NCBI GenBank assembly: GCA_015061525.1
Contig: SUWK01000015.1
Location: 1 to 46,788 of the forward strand
Length of the DNA stretch: 46,788 nucleotides
Source of the DNA: Lentisphaerota bacterium
GTDB lineage: Bacteria; Verrucomicrobiota; Lentisphaeria; Victivallales; Victivallaceae
Direction: 5' to 3'
Numbering within the stretch: the stretch's first letter is position 1; every line of letters starts with the position of its first letter. A program made the translations under genes and the position numbers. Below the pieces are notes generated by a model. The model had not been told where the DNA came from and made no database searches. It saw nothing but the letters and a program-made list of their open reading frames with translations. This document shows, in pieces, positions 35,672-46,788 of this stretch.

Positions 35672-36469
35672 ATGGATGAGATCGGGGAGAACTGTAATCT
35701 GATCGTACTGCAGCAGGTCGATTCCACCAATACCTACGCAAAAAATCACTTTGATACTCTGCCGGATCTTTCTGTTATTGCGGCAATTGAGCAAACTGCC
35801 GGCAGAGGACGCCTGGGGCGCAAATGGGTGACTCCTCCGGAATCGGCTTTGACCGCCAGTGCTGTGCTGAAAAATATCAAAGTGCCTTTTCATGCCGGTG
35901 TTATTACCGGTTTGGCAGGTTTGGAGCTTGTCAGGGAACAGTTGCCGGATAAGTTCTGCTTTTTCAAATGGCCCAACGATATCTACATAAAAGAGCGCAA
36001 AATTGCCGGGATACTTTCTGAAGGTGTGCTTAAAAACGGCAGACTTGCAGGGGTGGTTTCCGGTATCGGCATCAATGTGAATCAGAGTGCAGAGGATATG
36101 CGGCTGCTGGATAATCCTGCCACATCGTTGTGTGCTGAATCCGGAAAAAAGTTTTTTCTGGAAAAGTTGCGTTTAGAGCTTGCAGAAAAGATAAAAAAAT
36201 ACTATATTATGTATCAATCAAATTCTGAAGCTGTACTCGGATTGTGGCGTGATGAAAACCGCCTGATCGGGGAAACTTTGTTTTTGAATATGCCCGATGG
36301 TACGGTTCGGCAGGGGTGCTTTACCGGAATCGGGGAAAATGGTGAAATGATGCTTTGTACTCCGGATGGGGGGGATTTCCGCTTTGACTGTGGAGATGTT
36401 AAAATAGATGCGTCATTGATAGATTTTAATTTATTATCCTGTAAACATAAACAAGGGTCATTGCGATAA
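35672..36469 (+). CDS. birA: Biotin-[acetyl-CoA-carboxylase] ligase, monofunctional
   Basis: Attaches biotin to the lysine of carrier domains via biotinyl-AMP. The 265-residue protein starts almost directly with the catalytic domain: LQQVDSTNTYAKNH, the biotin/ATP loop QTAGRGRLGRKW, FKWPNDIYIKERKIAGILSE, and VVSGIGINVNQS. The N-terminal helix-turn-helix of the bifunctional E. coli BirA is absent, so it is a ligase without repressor function. A C-terminal SH3-like domain (GETLFLNMPDGTVRQGCFTGIGENGEMML) is present. It lies 39 bases before the gene for the gamma subunit of a biotin-dependent decarboxylase, its clear local client. Confidence 0.93.
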   Translation: MDEIGENCNLIVLQQVDSTNTYAKNHFDTLPDLSVIAAIEQTAGRGRLGRKWVTPPESALTASAVLKNIKVPFHAGVITGLAGLELVREQLPDKFCFFKWPNDIYIKERKIAGILSEGVLKNGRLAGVVSGIGINVNQSAEDMRLLDNPATSLCAESGKKFFLEKLRLELAEKIKKYYIMYQSNSEAVLGLWRDENRLIGETLFLNMPDGTVRQGCFTGIGENGEMMLCTPDGGDFRFDCGDVKIDASLIDFNLLSCKHKQGSLR

Positions 36470-36508: not shown

Positions 36509-36751
36509 ATGGGTGAAAAACTTCTCGCCGGACTTCAGTTGATGGTCTTTGGTATGGGGATGGTGTATGTCTTCCTCATTATCATGATCTTCTGCATGAA
36601 GTTGATGTCCAAAATCATCGCGCCGATCGCCGCGAAGCAGAAAGCTGCAGAAGATGCTGCCAAAGCTGCCGCTAAAAAACCGGCTGCTGCCTCATCTGAC
36701 GAATCTGCGCTGGTTGCCGCTGCGGTGGCAGCCGTTGCCGCGCGCCGCTGA
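36509..36751 (+). CDS. oadG: Oxaloacetate decarboxylase gamma subunit
   Basis: An 80-residue protein with one membrane helix near the N-terminus (LMVFGMGMVYVFLIIMIFCMKLM) and an Ala/Lys-rich cytoplasmic tail (AEDAAKAAAKKPAAA). This is the layout of OadG, which holds the alpha and beta subunits together and helps the decarboxylation site. The gene has an AAAGGAG site and leads the gamma-alpha-beta operon. Identification relies largely on operon position, size and the single-helix layout, since this subunit is poorly conserved. Confidence 0.85.
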   Translation: MGEKLLAGLQLMVFGMGMVYVFLIIMIFCMKLMSKIIAPIAAKQKAAEDAAKAAAKKPAAASSDESALVAAAVAAVAARR

Positions 36752-36797: not shown

Positions 36798-38870
36798 ATG
36801 AAAAAAATCAAATTCATGGATTGCTCATTCCGTGACGGCTTCCAGTCCTGTCTCGGAGCCCGGGTCAAAACCGAAGACTTCCTGCCCGCTCTTGATGCGG
36901 CGGTGAAAGCCGGTATCAACCACATTGAAATCGGTGGCGGTGCCCGTTTTCAGGCTCTTTATTTCTACTGTCAGGAAGATGCTTTTGAAATGATGGACAA
37001 ATGGCGCGCAACTGTCGGGCCGGATGTCAATTTGCAGACCCTTTCCCGCGGCGTCAACGTGGTCGGCTTGTCCAGTCAGTCCAGCGATATTATCGATCTG
37101 CATGCCAAACTTTTCAAGAAACACGGTATTACCACCATCCGTAACTTTGATGCGCTTAACGACGTGCGTAACCTTGACGTTTCCGGACGTGCTATCGCCA
37201 AACACGGTTTGAAACATCAGGTCACTGTTACTTTGATGGGACTTGCTCCCAACCTTACTGAAGCGTACGCCCATACTCCGAAATTTTACATCGACCGTCT
37301 GAATGAGATTTTGCAGTCCGGTATTCCTTTTGACAGCGTTGCTTTCAAAGATGCTTCCGGTACCAGCACTCCTGCGACTGTTTTTGAAACGGTCAAACAG
37401 GCGCGTGAGATCCTTGATGCCAACTACGGCAAAGGTGCCAAAGAGATCCAGTTCCACACTCACGACACTGCCGGTATGGCGGTCGCCTGCAATATGGCTG
37501 CCATCGAAGCCGGTGCGGATGTGATCGACCTTGCCATGAGTCCGCTTTCCGGCGGTACTTGCGAAGCCGACATCCTCGTGATGTACCAGAGACTGCGCGG
37601 CACTGATTACACTCTGGACATTGATCCGGAAAAGATCCTCGGCGTGGAAAAAATCTTTGAACAGTGCATGGATAAATACTTCATGCCGCCTGAATCAATG
37701 CAGGTTTCCCCGAAGATCATCTTCTCTCCCATGCCCGGTGGCGCGCTGACTGCCAATACCCAGATGATGCGCGACAACAAGTGCCTTGACAAGTATGACA
37801 AGTGCATCGAAGAAATGCGTGACGTGGTCGCCAAAGGCGGTTTCGGTACTTCCGTGACCCCGGTCAGCCAGTTCTACTTCCAGCAGGCGTTCCGTAACGC
37901 AGTGCAGGGCAAAAATCCGGATGGTTCCTGGAAAATGGATCCCAACGGTTACGGTAAAATGGTTCTCGGCTACTTCGGTAAGACTCCGGTTGCTCCCGAT
38001 CCGCAGCTGGTCAAATGGGCGAGCGAACAGCTCGGTCTTGAACCGACCACCAAAGCTGTTGTTGAACTCAACGATGCCAACCCGAAACTGGGTATCGCCT
38101 ACAATACTGAACTGCTGAAAGAAAACGGTTTGGAAGTTACTGAGGAAAACATCTTTATCGCCGCTGCCTGCGGAGAAAAAGGTATCAACTTCCTCAAAGG
38201 CGACAAACCCATGGGCATCCGTTACAAAGAAGCGGAGAAACCCGCTGCCAAAGCCGGTGCCAAGGCTTATACCGCCAATGTCAACGGAACCAATGTCGTG
38301 GTCGAACTCAACGCTGCCGGTGATGCTTACACCGCCAAAGTCAATGGTAAGAGCTTTGATGTCAAACTTGCCGAGGGTGCGTTGGTTTCTGCCGCTGCTC
38401 CCGCCGGAGCCGCCAGTGCCATGACCAGCCCGCTTCCGGGTACTGTTACCAAAATTCTGGTCAAGGCCGGTGACACGGTCAAAGCCGGTGATACGGTGAT
38501 GATTCTTGAAGCAATGAAAATGGAAACCCCGGTCGCCGCGGATAAAGATGGTGTGATTGCCTCCATCGACGTAACTGTCGGTGCAGTCGTCGCCGAGGGC
38601 GATGCGCTGATTACCATCGCCGGAGCTGCCGGTGCCGCTGCTGCTCCTGCCGGAGCCGCCAGTGCCATGACCAGCCCGCTTCCGGGTACTGTTACCAAAA
38701 TTCTGGTCAAGGCCGGTGATGCGGTCAAAGCCGGTGATACGGTAATGATTCTTGAAGCGATGAAAATGGAAACTCCGATCGCCGCGGATAAAGATGGTGT
38801 GATCACCTCCGTTGACGTGACTGTCGGAGCGGTAGTCGCCGAGGGTGACGCGCTGATTACCATCGGTTGA
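36798..38870 (+). CDS. oadA: Oxaloacetate decarboxylase alpha subunit with two tandem biotinyl domains
   Basis: The carboxyltransferase subunit moves CO2 from oxaloacetate to biotin. Residues 1-300 form the TIM-barrel domain: [11 protein letters not shown] holds the first metal Asp, [10 protein letters not shown] the Lys expected to be carbamylated, and QFHTHDTAG the His-x-His metal ligands. A conserved PYC_OADA region runs to about residue 480. Two biotinyl domains follow, each centred on ILEAMKMET, with target lysines K574 and K656; their start points are 82 residues apart. Canonical OadA has a single carrier domain. The FRDGFQS version of the usual LRDAHQS motif shows a divergent subgroup, so the substrate could be a related 2-oxo or dicarboxylic acid. 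At 690 residues it is about 90 longer than usual. Confidence 0.88.
38403..38867 (+). repeat. 246-bp direct repeat encoding duplicated biotinyl domains
   Basis: A segment beginning GCCGGAGCCGCCAGTGCCAT at 38403 recurs at 38649, an offset of exactly 246 bases (82 codons). The copies are almost identical over the first 70 bases and differ mainly at third codon positions later, which indicates recent tandem duplication or ongoing gene conversion. Confidence 0.9.
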
Positions 38871-38881
38871 GAGGTGTGAAA

Positions 38882-40591
38882 ATGAATATGATCAAAAAAT
38901 TCAGTCTTGTGCTGATGCTGGCAGTTGCGGCGGTGTTTACCGCCGCTGCCGCAGGCAAATGTGATAAAAATTGTCCGGATGCTGCAAAAATCAAAGAGTG
39001 TCCGATCCAGACTGTCAGCTGCCAGTTGGCAAGAGACGGCTATGTCATTGATGAAGAATCCAGTGATGATCTTTTTCAGTGGTGGGTCAAAGGCAACAGC
39101 CGCAAACTGCTGTATGTCGGTAAACTCAATGAAGGCGGCAAAGTCAAATTTGTCCCTGCCACGATCTACACCGTGACCATCCCGTATGATGGTGTTTGCA
39201 ATCCCGGCCGTCAGATGATGATGTATCATCCGGAAGGTTACAGTAAAGGTATCTTGAGTTCCAAAACTACTGTCAAACTGCTTGCCAAACATGAAAGTAC
39301 CAAAGATGCCGGAACTCTGCTGCCCGGAACACTGGTTGCTGAGTTTGAAGCATTGGAGATCGCCCAGACTGCAGTCGCCGGCGGCGATGTCGCCGGTCAG
39401 AAACTTGACAGCTGGGGCAAAACCTTTGCCAATCTGTGGAAAAGCACCGGTATTTATGACCTGTACCGTCAGTCAACTGCCAATTTCAGTACCACTTGGA
39501 CTCTCGGCATCGGCCGCGTGCTGATGATGCTGGTTGCTCTCGTGCTGATTTATCTGGCGATCGTCAAAGAGTTTGAGCCGCTTTTGCTGCTGCCGATCGG
39601 TTTCGGTGCATTGCTTGCAAATATTCCGCTTGCCGGTATTTCCGGACCTGACGGTCTTCAGGGAATGGTTTTTGAAGTCGGTATCAACAGCGGTGTGTTC
39701 CCGCTTCTGATCTTCCTCGGTGTCGGTGCAATGACAGACTTCGGTCCTTTGATTGCCAACCCGAAAACCGCTCTGCTCGGTGGTGCGGCGCAGTTTGGTA
39801 TCTTCTCCGCTCTGCTCGGTGCGGTCGCTCTCGGTGCGATCGGAATCGACTTTGACCTGAAAGATGCTGCCAGTATCGGTATCATCGGTGGTGCCGACGG
39901 TCCTACAGCGATCTATCTTGCCAGCCGTCTTTCCCCGAAACTGCTCGGTGCGATCGCGGTTGCGGCGTACAGCTACATGGCTCTGGTACCGATCATTCAG
40001 CCGCCCATCATGCGTCTGTTGACGACTGACGCTGAGCGCAAGATCAGAATGACCACGCTCCGTCCGGTGAGCAAGATCGAGAAAATCTGTTTCCCGATCC
40101 TCATTACTCTGCTCTGTGCGCTGCTGCTGCCGGATGCCGCTCCTCTGATCGGTATGCTGATGTTCGGTAACTTGCTGAAAGAAAGCGGCGTGACTGAACG
40201 TCTGAATCAGACTGCCCAGAATGCGTTGATCAACATCGTTACCATCTTCCTCGGTATCGCGGTCGGCAGTAAACTTTCTGCGGATCAGTTCCTGAGTGTC
40301 CAGACGCTGGGTATTCTCTTCCTCGGTGCGGTCGCATTCAGTATCGGTACTTCTGCTGGTATTTTGTTCGCCAAGCTGATGAACTGCTTCAGCAAGACCA
40401 AGATCAATCCGTTGATCGGTTCTGCCGGTGTGTCTGCTGTGCCGATGGCGGCGCGTGTCTCCAGCAAAGTCGGTCAGGAGTCTGATCCCCATAACTTCCT
40501 GCTGATGCACGCTATGGGCCCGAATGTTGCCGGTGTTATCGGTTCTGCGGTTGCTGCCGGTGTGCTGCTGAATATGCTCAAGAACCTCTGA
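38882..40591 (+). CDS. oadB: Sodium-translocating oxaloacetate decarboxylase beta subunit with secreted N-terminal extension
   Basis: The membrane subunit decarboxylates carboxybiotin and exports sodium ions. Residues from about 186 onward are standard OadB, with [21 protein letters not shown], the loop [18 protein letters not shown] containing the key Asp, and a closing [19 protein letters not shown]. In front lies an unusual extension: a signal peptide (about residues 1-25) and roughly 160 residues with several Cys ([17 protein letters not shown]) that would sit outside the cytoplasm. ATG 38882 follows AGAGGTG and begins the signal peptide. The operon is completed here and ends in a strong terminator. 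The extension's role is unknown; a substrate or partner-binding domain is possible. Confidence 0.88.
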
Positions 40592-44345: not shown

Positions 44346-46788
44346 ATGACGAGTAACGGTGGAGTGCAGTATGTGCCGCAGATAGCGGTGCAGTATGTGT
44401 ATTTGGATTTTGACGGGGAATTGACCGATTATAATGGTGAAATATTGACCATTGAGGGCGTGGAGGTGCGCGATCCCCAGTTGACTCAAGCGCGTATTGC
44501 CGATATCCTTGCCGAACTCAATAAAAAATACGCCTCGCAAAATGTGATTTTCGTCACTGAACGCCCAGCAAATGCCGAATATTCCACCATTTTCATCGGC
44601 AAAACTAAAGCCTTTGACCAATACGGAAGCTTTGCCGGATTAGCTGAAACAGTTGATTTCAACAATCAGAACCATTCCGACAACGCCTTTGTCAACCTTG
44701 ACTCCACCGCCACAAATGAGCAGATAATTTCCACCATCAGCCATGAAACCGACCACTTGTTAGGCACATTAGACCACGGTGGCGAGGGACTGCAGCGGTA
44801 TGGTTATTATTATGTATACAACGGACAAACATTATCCGGCATTACGTTGGAAAATGGTGACTCAATGTACATCTACTCCGGCGGTACTGCAACTGCAATC
44901 CGTGAAAATGGCGGATATGTTTATGTCGAGGATGGAGCAAATGTCACATTTGTCTCCAATACAATTTCCGGATTGACATTAGGCGATCGTATGACGGTAC
45001 ATCAGAATACTGTGGCGAACGATACAACGTTGAACTATGGCTCCATGTACATCTCCTCCGGCGGTGTGGCGAACAGCACAACCGTTAATTTCGGTGGCGG
45101 TATGTACATCTCCTCCGGCGGTGTAGCGAACAGCACGACTGTTAATTCCGGCGGCGATATGTACATCTCCTCCGGCGGTGTAGCGAACAGCACGACTGTT
45201 ACCTACGGCTGGATGTACATCTCCTCCGGCGGTGTAGCGAACAGCACGACAGTTAATACCTACAGCGTTATGTACATCGAATCCGGCGGTGTGGCGAACA
45301 GCACCACTGTTAACTTCAGGGGCTCCATGTACATCTCCTCCGGCGGTGTAGCGAACAGCATGACCGTTAATTCCGGCGGCGAAATGTACATCTCCTCCGG
45401 CGTTGTGGTGAACAGCACCACTGTTAACTTCAGGGGCTCCATGTACATCTCCTCCGGCGGTACTGCAACTGCAATCCGTGAAAATGGCGGATATGTTTAT
45501 GTCGAGGATGGAGCAAATGTCACGTTTGTCTCCAATACAATTTCCGGATTGACATTATCATTCACTTCTATGACGGTACACGAGAATACTGTTGCAAACA
45601 GCACGACCGTTAATTCCGGCGGCAGAATGTACATCGAATCCGGCGGGATACATCGCGGCACTCTGCAAATCAACAGCGGAGCATGGATATATGCATATAG
45701 TGGTTCTACCATTGACTTTTCTCTTACCGGCAGAAGTGCGTCAAGCGGATATCTGATCAATGATCTTTCCCGCATTTTCTATTCGCCAACGTTTACCATA
45801 ACTGTGTCAGACAGTCAGGAAAGCGGTACTTACAAACTGGCGCAGGGTGCAAGCAGCTTCACCGGTTCAATAACCATTGGAACAGATACTCTTGATTATG
45901 GTACTCTTGCAGTCAATGGTTCTGCGGTCGAAAATGATACTCTGAGTTACCGGTTGGTAAAAACAGATGGCAACTTGAATTTGGTCGTGGAAGACAAACC
46001 CGCTGCCTTGCCGGATCTGCGCATGGCGGAGTACGATGTTTCAAGCAACAGCATCACCACGCAGGAATCGGTCAAATTGACATTCAAGGTCTACAACGAC
46101 GGCAATGCCGATGCCCCGGCTTCAACCATCAAGGTTTATGACGGCGACAAACTTTTGCGTGAAGTTGCCCTCGGTGAGATCGCCGCCGGGAGCTATCGCA
46201 ACTGTTACATCACCCTCACTGCCGGAAAACTTTCTGTCGGTACGCATAAAGTCAACGTGGTATTGGATTCCGGGAATATCATTGCGGAATCAAGAGAGGA
46301 CAACAACAACTCCTACCGCACCATCTTCGTGAAAGCTCCCTCCGCCCAAGCGGACTTGCGTATGGCGGAATACGCTGTTTCCAGTAACAGCATCACCACG
46401 CAGGAATCGGTCAGGTTGACGTTCACCGTCTATAATGACGGTAATGCTTATGCTCCGGCAAGCATGATAAAGGTTTACGATGGTGATACGCTTTTGCGTG
46501 AAGTTGCCCTCGGTGAGATCGCGGCAGGAGCTTACCGCAACTGTTACATCACCCTCACCGCCGGAAAACTTTCTGTCGGAACTCACAAAGTCAACGTGGT
46601 GCTTGATGCCGGGAATGGTATTGCTGAATCCAATGAGAACAATAACAACTCCTACCGCACCATCTTTGTGAAAGCCGCCACTGCCCAACCTGACTTGCGT
46701 ATGGCGGAATACGATGTTTCCAGTAACAATATAACCACGCAGGAATCGGTCAAACTGACATTCAAAGTCTACAACGACGGCAATGCCG
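44346..46788 (+). CDS. Large AIDA-repeat surface protein with zincin-like N-terminus and CARDB-like domains (partial, runs off window)
   Basis: An open frame of 814 codons with no stop before the window edge. Residues 1-150 form a compact domain (VQYVYLDFDGELTDYNGEILTI, then NVIFVTERP and STIFIGKT) with HETDHLLGTLDH at 133-144. This fits the metzincin pattern HExxHxxGxxD of snapalysin-type proteases: H133, E134, H137 and D143, with H144 adjacent. Residues from about 165 to 440 are strand-loop-strand repeats of the AIDA autotransporter type (MYISSGGVANSTTVNSGG). From about residue 555 come CARDB-like beta-sandwich repeats of 113 residues beginning DLRMAEYDVSSN. No N-terminal signal peptide is visible, so export must use another signal or an unrecognised start. 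Likely a cell-surface or secreted adhesin, possibly proteolytic. Confidence 0.75.
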   Translation, partial: MTSNGGVQYVPQIAVQYVYLDFDGELTDYNGEILTIEGVEVRDPQLTQARIADILAELNKKYASQNVIFVTERPANAEYSTIFIGKTKAFDQYGSFAGLAETVDFNNQNHSDNAFVNLDSTATNEQIISTISHETDHLLGTLDHGGEGLQRYGYYYVYNGQTLSGITLENGDSMYIYSGGTATAIRENGGYVYVEDGANVTFVSNTISGLTLGDRMTVHQNTVANDTTLNYGSMYISSGGVANSTTVNFGGGMYISSGGVANSTTVNSGGDMYISSGGVANSTTVTYGWMYISSGGVANSTTVNTYSVMYIESGGVANSTTVNFRGSMYISSGGVANSMTVNSGGEMYISSGVVVNSTTVNFRGSMYISSGGTATAIRENGGYVYVEDGANVTFVSNTISGLTLSFTSMTVHENTVANSTTVNSGGRMYIESGGIHRGTLQINSGAWIYAYSGSTIDFSLTGRSASSGYLINDLSRIFYSPTFTITVSDSQESGTYKLAQGASSFTGSITIGTDTLDYGTLAVNGSAVENDTLSYRLVKTDGNLNLVVEDKPAALPDLRMAEYDVSSNSITTQESVKLTFKVYNDGNADAPASTIKVYDGDKLLREVALGEIAAGSYRNCYITLTAGKLSVGTHKVNVVLDSGNIIAESREDNNNSYRTIFVKAPSAQADLRMAEYAVSSNSITTQESVRLTFTVYNDGNAYAPASMIKVYDGDTLLREVALGEIAAGAYRNCYITLTAGKLSVGTHKVNVVLDAGNGIAESNENNNNSYRTIFVKAATAQPDLRMAEYDVSSNNITTQESVKLTFKVYNDGNA
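44865..45557 (+). repeat. 117-bp near-identical direct repeat pair within the surface protein gene
   Basis: The 117-base segment 44865-44981 recurs at 45441-45557 with only two differing bases that I can see (ATCTACTCC versus ATCTCCTCC, and CACATTT versus CACGTTT). It encodes the block GGTATAIRENGGYVYVEDGA. The two copies bracket the run of 57-bp repeats, so recombination between them would delete the whole block in frame. Confidence 0.88.
45045..45497 (+). repeat. 57-bp tandem repeats encoding strand-loop-strand units
   Basis: Units beginning ATGTACATC start at 45045, 45102, 45159, 45213, 45270, 45327, 45384 and 45441: seven intervals, six of 57 bases and one of 54. Each encodes MYISSGGVANSTTVN plus four variable residues. 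All steps are multiples of three, so unit gain or loss keeps the frame. Confidence 0.92.
46014..46788 (+). repeat. 339-bp tandem repeats encoding CARDB-like domains
   Basis: The boundary GAC/GAT-CTGCGCATGGCGGA recurs at 46014, 46353 and 46692, a constant period of 339 bases (113 residues). The third copy is cut by the window edge. Each unit holds NSITTQESVKLTF, VYNDGNA, IKVYDGD and the end NNNSYRTIFVKA, the layout of CARDB cell-adhesion-type modules. Confidence 0.9.

Follow-up and report, generated by a model that had tools for sequence, protein, structure and literature searches.

Why would the alpha subunit of a sodium-pumping decarboxylase carry two biotin arms where one is usual? The question is raised by a gene on the + strand (36,798..38,870) of a contig from a Lentisphaerota bacterium; the whole stretch of 46,788 nucleotides that was analysed is hereafter called the window. 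The 690-residue product consists of an HMGL-like plus PYC_OADA carboxyltransferase part followed by two C-terminal biotinyl domains that are nearly identical to one another. We think it probable that it serves as the alpha subunit of a Na+-translocating decarboxylase, membrane-bound and dependent on biotin, in which two functional arms work in series.

The alpha subunit and its two biotinyl domains

Pfam matches on the 690-residue open reading frame comprise HMGL-like (PF00682) and PYC_OADA (PF02436), both with scores that exceed the gathering scores and so mark a carboxyltransferase chain, and two Biotin_lipoyl domains (PF00364), both far over the cut-off. Copy 1 spans residues 540–608 (38,415..38,621, + strand) with acceptor lysine K574 (codon AAA, 38,517–38,519), and copy 2 spans residues 622–690 (38,661..38,867, + strand) with acceptor K656 (codon AAA, 38,763–38,765). 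A first reading made from the letters without database searches (the sequence-only reading) had placed two complete, near-identical domains at 38,403–38,867, and its coordinates were accurate; it had also set each lysine within ILEAMKMET with a spacing of 82 residues, exactly as the open reading frame reads. Between the copies lies a flexible Ala/Gly-rich linker (residues 609–621; 38,622..38,660, + strand; pLDDT <50 at 610–619), and of the 18 residues that separate the two domain HMM matches, 83% are Ala, Pro or Gly. Ahead of copy 1, after the PYC_OADA part, a small beta module is predicted at residues 490–522 (38,265..38,363, + strand), with strands at 490–495, 498–503, 510–515 and 518–522 and pLDDT of about 40–54 by block; from the model, we presume it to be a hinge or subunit-association region.

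At the DNA level, both domains and part of the linker form a 246-bp tandem repeat (38,394..38,865, + strand; Tandem Repeats Finder, 1.9 copies, 92% match). The copies are 92.5% identical across 226 aligned bases, the longest stretch without a difference being 71 bp, and their 64-codon cores differ by 12 synonymous and 4 non-synonymous changes (dS 0.29, dN 0.029); in 100 codon-shuffled versions of the gene, identity at such offsets was at most 45%, versus 93% in the real one. Two further tandem repeats occur in the window: a 57-bp array of 7.4 copies at 45,045–45,461 (Tandem Repeats Finder) and a 339-bp repeat of at least 2.3 copies at 46,011–46,788 that reaches the contig end.

Could the tandem domains be an artefact of assembly? 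The assembly is a draft of 122 contigs, and the repeat exceeds a typical short read in length. Against this, short-read assembly tends to collapse repeats and rarely creates diverged ones, 16 sites in the domain cores distinguish the copies, and 15 other assemblies contain a two-domain OadA whose lysines lie 79 to 97 residues apart. Because the same layout recurs with other spacings in independent assemblies, we give an artefact practically no chance, and the two complete biotinyl domains in one open reading frame are confirmed as real.

The copies also appear as separate bodies in the predicted structure. An AlphaFold2 model built on a 14-sequence alignment (mean pLDDT 75.5) has two separate beta barrels, 540–608 and 622–690, and a low-confidence linker at 610–619; pLDDT per block of ten is 65–80 in copy 1 (<50 at 573–575) and 84–88 in copy 2. 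In a Foldseek search, pyruvate carboxylase chains rank first (5ks8_D, TM by target 0.70), and the Vibrio cholerae OAD carboxyltransferase 2nx9 stands at rank 46 (TM by target 0.84), behind pyruvate carboxylases and transcarboxylase 5S of the same fold. By sequence and fold, the closest solved relative is 5ks8, the beta chain of a two-subunit pyruvate carboxylase. D13, K184, H220 and H222 (motifs RDxxQS, FKD and HxHxxxG), which we take for the active-site metal and lysine motifs, are invariant across the 14 aligned sequences and align with identical letters in 5ks8.

Gene cluster and enzyme identity

The gene belongs to a + strand cluster in the order birA-oadG-oadA-oadB. The birA-like biotin-protein ligase gene (35,672..36,469, + strand) matches PF03099 and scores above the TIGR00121 cut-off; PF03099 was its sole Pfam match at E up to 0.001, with no helix-turn-helix family among the matches at that threshold. 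Between birA and oadA lies oadG, encoding the small membrane/linker gamma subunit (36,509..36,751, + strand; PF04277, TIGR01195 above cut-off), and downstream is oadB, encoding the sodium pump/decarboxylase subunit (38,882..40,591, + strand; PF03977, TIGR01109 above cut-off) with a lineage-specific N-terminal extension. The sequence-only reading had called the protein the alpha subunit of a sodium-pump decarboxylase, and the adjoining oadG and oadB, whose products fall in the expected families above cut-offs, bear this out. It had also pointed to birA just upstream; the ligase gene is indeed there, but oadG intervenes and the association is not specific. The same cluster order is found around most of the single-domain relatives examined, so birA does not mark the duplication, and in some relatives (such as L016–L018 and L043) no birA match was found.

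The extension of OadB (residues 1–205; 38,882–39,496) comprises a start that by eye resembles a signal peptide and a domain before the PF03977 part. It is present in the Lentisphaerota OadB proteins examined; in L055, L056, L057 and L062, the alignment of OadB starts no earlier than about residue 146–177. Residues 24–205 are modelled as mostly beta with a core pLDDT of about 90, Foldseek's top matches to the extension are mostly lipoyl, H-protein and biotinyl proteins (all at E 0.007 or worse), and hhalign against biotinyl domains aligns 27 columns with probability 39 and E 0.0003. The window copy has no Pfam match, and the extension lacks an MKM motif. Judging from the model, it may be a degenerate barrel-sandwich domain that the pump bears on its extracytoplasmic side.

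What does the enzyme act on? Against TIGR01108, the NCBIfam oadA equivalog, the protein scores 367.4 bits, below the cut-off of 756.5, and its best solved relatives are pyruvate carboxylase chains; the substrate is therefore less certain, and we presume oxaloacetate, with coupling to Na+, and speak of an Oad-type alpha subunit instead of an OadA equivalog. Might the subunit then act as, or also as, PycB, or with some other soluble partner that the second arm serves? Both the kinship with 5ks8 and the sub-cut-off score lean that way, as does an excerpt of a paper on the two-biotin OadA of Geobacter bemidjiensis that speculates on a complex with GcdA (PMC2996986); against it, OadG and OadB are encoded next door, and no dedicated PycA is seen in the organism's own genome, whose assembly is 89.6% complete. 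That assembly has five PF00364 matches: besides the two described here, a BCCP-like frame has one and a 561-residue E2-like chain has two. The latter, encoded on contig C93 (L004, L005) and bearing two lipoyl-type domains, gives the genome another, parallel double carrier. PF02786 has four matches there: one by the BCCP, two in a 1076-residue frame and one weak. One of the four is a clear biotin carboxylase match, separated by about 0.4 kb from that of the BCCP, on a contig other than that of oadA. By position it is AccC-like and would fit acetyl-CoA carboxylase, and the pair in the 1076-residue frame appears CarB-like by layout. With the lone clear carboxylase so assigned, no dedicated PycA is in view in an assembly of 89.6% completeness, and gene content thus favours a decarboxylase role over a pyruvate carboxylase role. 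We regard the PycB alternative as very unlikely.

Distribution and history of the second domain

How widespread is the second domain? We searched 137 genomes of the order with the double domain, and 101 matched at E up to 1e-15. Reading of open reading frames confirmed a two-domain OadA in at least 16 of the 137, a lower bound as only part of the 101 matching genomes was read: six belong to the window's genus (G000, G001, G011, G014, G021, G028), five to genus g36 (G281, G314, G320, G346, G675) and the remaining ones are G108, G035, G038, G655 and G657 (G108 was read as L039, and its genome carries that sequence at an identical contig position). The close sisters G020, G016 and G009 have one domain each. 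Linkers in the 16 two-domain proteins run from 16 to 34 residues, with an Ala+Pro+Gly content of 35–88%. Several of the Lentisphaerae/Victivallaceae relative assemblies come from gut or faeces samples.

Relatives usually have a single biotinyl domain, as the sequence-only reading had stated for OadA-type subunits. Outside the phylum, 57 of the 59 OadA frames in an 80-locus set have one domain and no frame has two; the two frames that lack a domain are L099, with its carrier cut by undetermined bases, and a 117-residue fragment of L103. A pattern scan of the own phylum, with a stricter pattern that missed two-domain proteins with longer linkers, matched 7 of 387 genomes, all in OadA. Scans of other phyla, limited in spacing and to exact AMKM codons such that variants are missed, gave one match in 247 genomes for the phylum of L055 (a chance match amid stop codons), 0 of 200 for that of L110 and 0 of 297 for that of L062. 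A plasmid search returned 383 records, all below 60% identity, six of which nominally cover 80% of the query; the four listed of the six are matching places of 318–345 bases, with one domain matched twice, and were rejected as two-domain candidates. Three further candidates were set aside: L038, seemingly longer by tblastn, has an open reading frame that ends after one domain; the 1139-residue open frame of G048, a putative fusion, resolves into an OadA with a separate OadB-like frame after its stop; and for the 1201-residue open frame of G058, likewise a putative fusion, the OadA frame read is 657 residues long with one domain. Two loci are of separate note. At L035/L089 (G030), a 558-residue OadA frame lacks a carrier and the biotinyl domain stands in a separate 117-residue frame holding undetermined bases; this split is probably a sequence gap. 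On L099, a Sulfurovum contig, the start of a carrier is followed by undetermined bases and then, in another frame, by that linker again and a complete carrier domain. This may reflect an overlap left by scaffolding or, possibly, a further instance of tandem carriers, here beyond the order.

Did the second domain arise once or several times? Trees were built from a chosen set that included four relatives from outside the phylum and excluded contigs that occur more than once, incomplete genes (L053, L054 and L131–L133 among them), L035/L089 and L129 (the second OadA of G054). The core tree was made from 65 catalytic parts, among them those of 15 of the 16 proteins with two domains; L181, with a broken frame (153 + 630 residues; its domains are still counted), and L186, a duplicate of L038, were omitted. 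The two-domain label changes six times on this tree, with at least five changes, each a gain or a loss, forced by well-supported branches. On the domain tree, made without the partial L024, copies 1 and 2 of the same protein pair firmly in L019, L025 and L039; its 64 columns do not resolve copy orthology in the window's genus. Linker lengths and sequences vary between lineages, and these differences, taken with the pairing in the three proteins, favour several separate duplications in the order as the apparent origin; a single old duplication followed by losses and homogenisation could have left the same picture.

Two genera show contrasting histories of the copies. In the window's genus (six proteins, 15 pairs), species-specific sites, which the two copies of one species have in common, number 177 and copy-specific sites, which one and the same copy has in common between species, 45, with 29 in the crossed control; median pS is 0.315 within a protein versus 0.498 and 0.485 between orthologous copies, both within-protein values lie below both orthologous values in 13 of the 15 pairs, and no residue distinguishes copy 1 from copy 2. 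Likeness within a protein thus exceeds likeness between species, and so the copies have been homogenised or re-duplicated. This conclusion comes from the site and pS patterns; the run-length test did not prove patchy gene conversion in the window, the longest identical codon run being longer than under shuffled order at p<0.05 in three of nine proteins (0.027, 0.034 and 0 of 5000 shuffles) and giving p 0.15 for the window gene. In genus g36 (five proteins, 10 pairs), species-specific sites number 33, copy-specific sites 164 and crossed sites 21; six residues are fixed between copies over the five genomes (V/A, V/A, I/V, L/I, A/V, I/M), and median pN is 0.106 between copies versus 0.007 among copy-1 and 0.023 among copy-2 orthologues at a similar pS of about 0.4. 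The g36 copies are distinct, stable across five genomes and each strongly constrained. The picture is mixed in g6, g201 and g202, which belong to another family (3 pairs), with 48 species-specific, 16 copy-specific and 4 crossed sites. The suggestion that the duplication is recent or maintained by conversion therefore suits the window's genus, but in g36 it is not simply recent.

The g36 pattern invites another reading, namely that the arms have specialised in some lineages, one serving mainly the carboxyltransferase and the other the pump or another acceptor. The fixed residues, the excess of copy-specific sites and the gap between copies in pN are what such a division of labour would leave; the six differences are conservative, however, and the reading is inapplicable to the window, where its genus has no copy-distinguishing residue. 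We consider specialised arms distinctly unlikely.

Is the second domain maintained by selection? In all 16 two-domain proteins, dN/dS between copies is 0.10–0.31, which indicates purifying selection, and the acceptor lysine is retained in 31 of 32 copies. The exception is copy 2 of G028 (L008), a domain that is intact except that codon ATA puts isoleucine in the place of the lysine (EAMIMET). The assembly is 71% complete, and this could be a real loss, making a variant with one dead arm, or a base error. Loss of one lysine in all relatives, which the sequence-only reading had named as an observation that would tell against it, is not what is seen: a lysine is lost in one of the 16 two-domain proteins. 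If the second domain were a nearly neutral tandem duplication, in which the repeat unit duplicates and collapses easily, an extra arm is tolerated and homogenisation preserves it without benefit, one might expect the patchy distribution with single-domain sisters, the lost lysine of G028 and the predominance of species-specific sites in the window's genus. The low dN/dS and the retained lysines sit poorly with neutrality, as does g36, where homogenisation is weak and yet orthologues differ so little in pN, and as do at least five state changes within one order when narrow-pattern samples of three other phyla gave no true match. A neutral origin with later maintenance is possible; a second arm that remains nearly neutral is, in our judgement, doubtful.

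Two arms on one chain and their known parallels

Two working arms in series thus remain our preferred account. In its favour we count domains far over cut-off that form separate barrels, OadG and OadB alongside, the retained lysines, the constraint between copies and the repeated changes of state; against it we count the single-domain sisters and the ability of gene conversion alone to keep copy 2 intact in the window's genus. Biotin would be attached to both domains, either by the ligase encoded next door or by a general one, and each arm would pick up CO2 at the site of carboxyl transfer and pass it on to OadB. A second arm would increase the local number of carriers per chain, with an inferred kinetic benefit, and would provide redundancy; in G028, whose copy 2 has isoleucine, a single arm may be enough. 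The two arms might also raise the rate of transfer to the membrane subunit or alternate, one being loaded while the other is unloaded, as the sequence-only reading proposed. Gene conversion, unequal exchange or renewed duplication might keep the copies alike in the window's genus. A bolder proposal, which we rate as unlikely, is that the second arm is a repeated adaptive solution in the order and that in at least one genus the arms are no longer interchangeable and split the labour of carboxyltransferase and pump. If this were true, natural variants would form a series that begins with a single arm, passes through near-identical twins and a form with one dead arm, and ends in specialised twins. 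The order already offers single-arm, twin-arm, diverged-twin (g36) and, if G028 has no base error, one-dead-arm versions of one subunit.

How does this compare with known systems? OadABG of Klebsiella pneumoniae and Vibrio cholerae resembles the window in its carboxyltransferase, its C-terminal biotinyl domain, and its OadB and small subunit. Their alpha subunits are described, in excerpts of PMC7145394 and PMC2881705, with one biotin-binding domain; the window's protein has two and is divergent, scoring below the oadA equivalog cut-off. A two-biotin OadA has precedent: Gbem_1454 of Geobacter bemidjiensis was reported in 2010 to have two biotin attachment domains, and the same excerpt describes it as lacking other pump subunits and its pump-associated homologues as having only one domain (PMC2996986). 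Compared by description, both proteins are two-biotin OadAs, and that of the window has OadB and OadG alongside. Our literature search, covering open-licence papers and missing most subscription papers, found no earlier description of a pump-associated two-biotin OadA. This suggests that the two-biotin OadA without a pump is already known and the pump-associated one is new, and twin arms beside a pump run against the 2010 remark in that excerpt (PMC2996986).

Another sodium-pump decarboxylase, glutaconyl-CoA decarboxylase, has two slightly different biotin carriers per complex with Ala/Pro-rich linkers, GcdC1 and GcdC2, which are separate subunits, whereas those of the window are tandem domains on the catalytic chain. 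Its carboxyltransferase belongs to another family. In Clostridium symbiosum, the two carriers are described together with four GcdA and two GcdB (PMC7145394, in part). BCCP domains of different chains are treated in an excerpt of PMC5059739.

Multi-lipoyl E2 chains of the 2-oxoacid dehydrogenases share with the window very similar swinging arms on one chain; they differ in that the domains are lipoyl instead of biotinyl and the reaction is another one. Their lipoyl domains are N-terminal, whereas the biotinyl domains here are C-terminal. To our knowledge, the number of carrier arms as a limit on transfer has been far less tested for biotin-dependent enzymes than for lipoyl arms. Escherichia coli E2p, for example, has three lipoyl domains that are given as 73% identical in an excerpt of PMC8421416. 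By analogy with such chains, the best reading of the window's alpha subunit would be two swinging arms in series, a biotin-dependent parallel to the multi-lipoyl E2 design.
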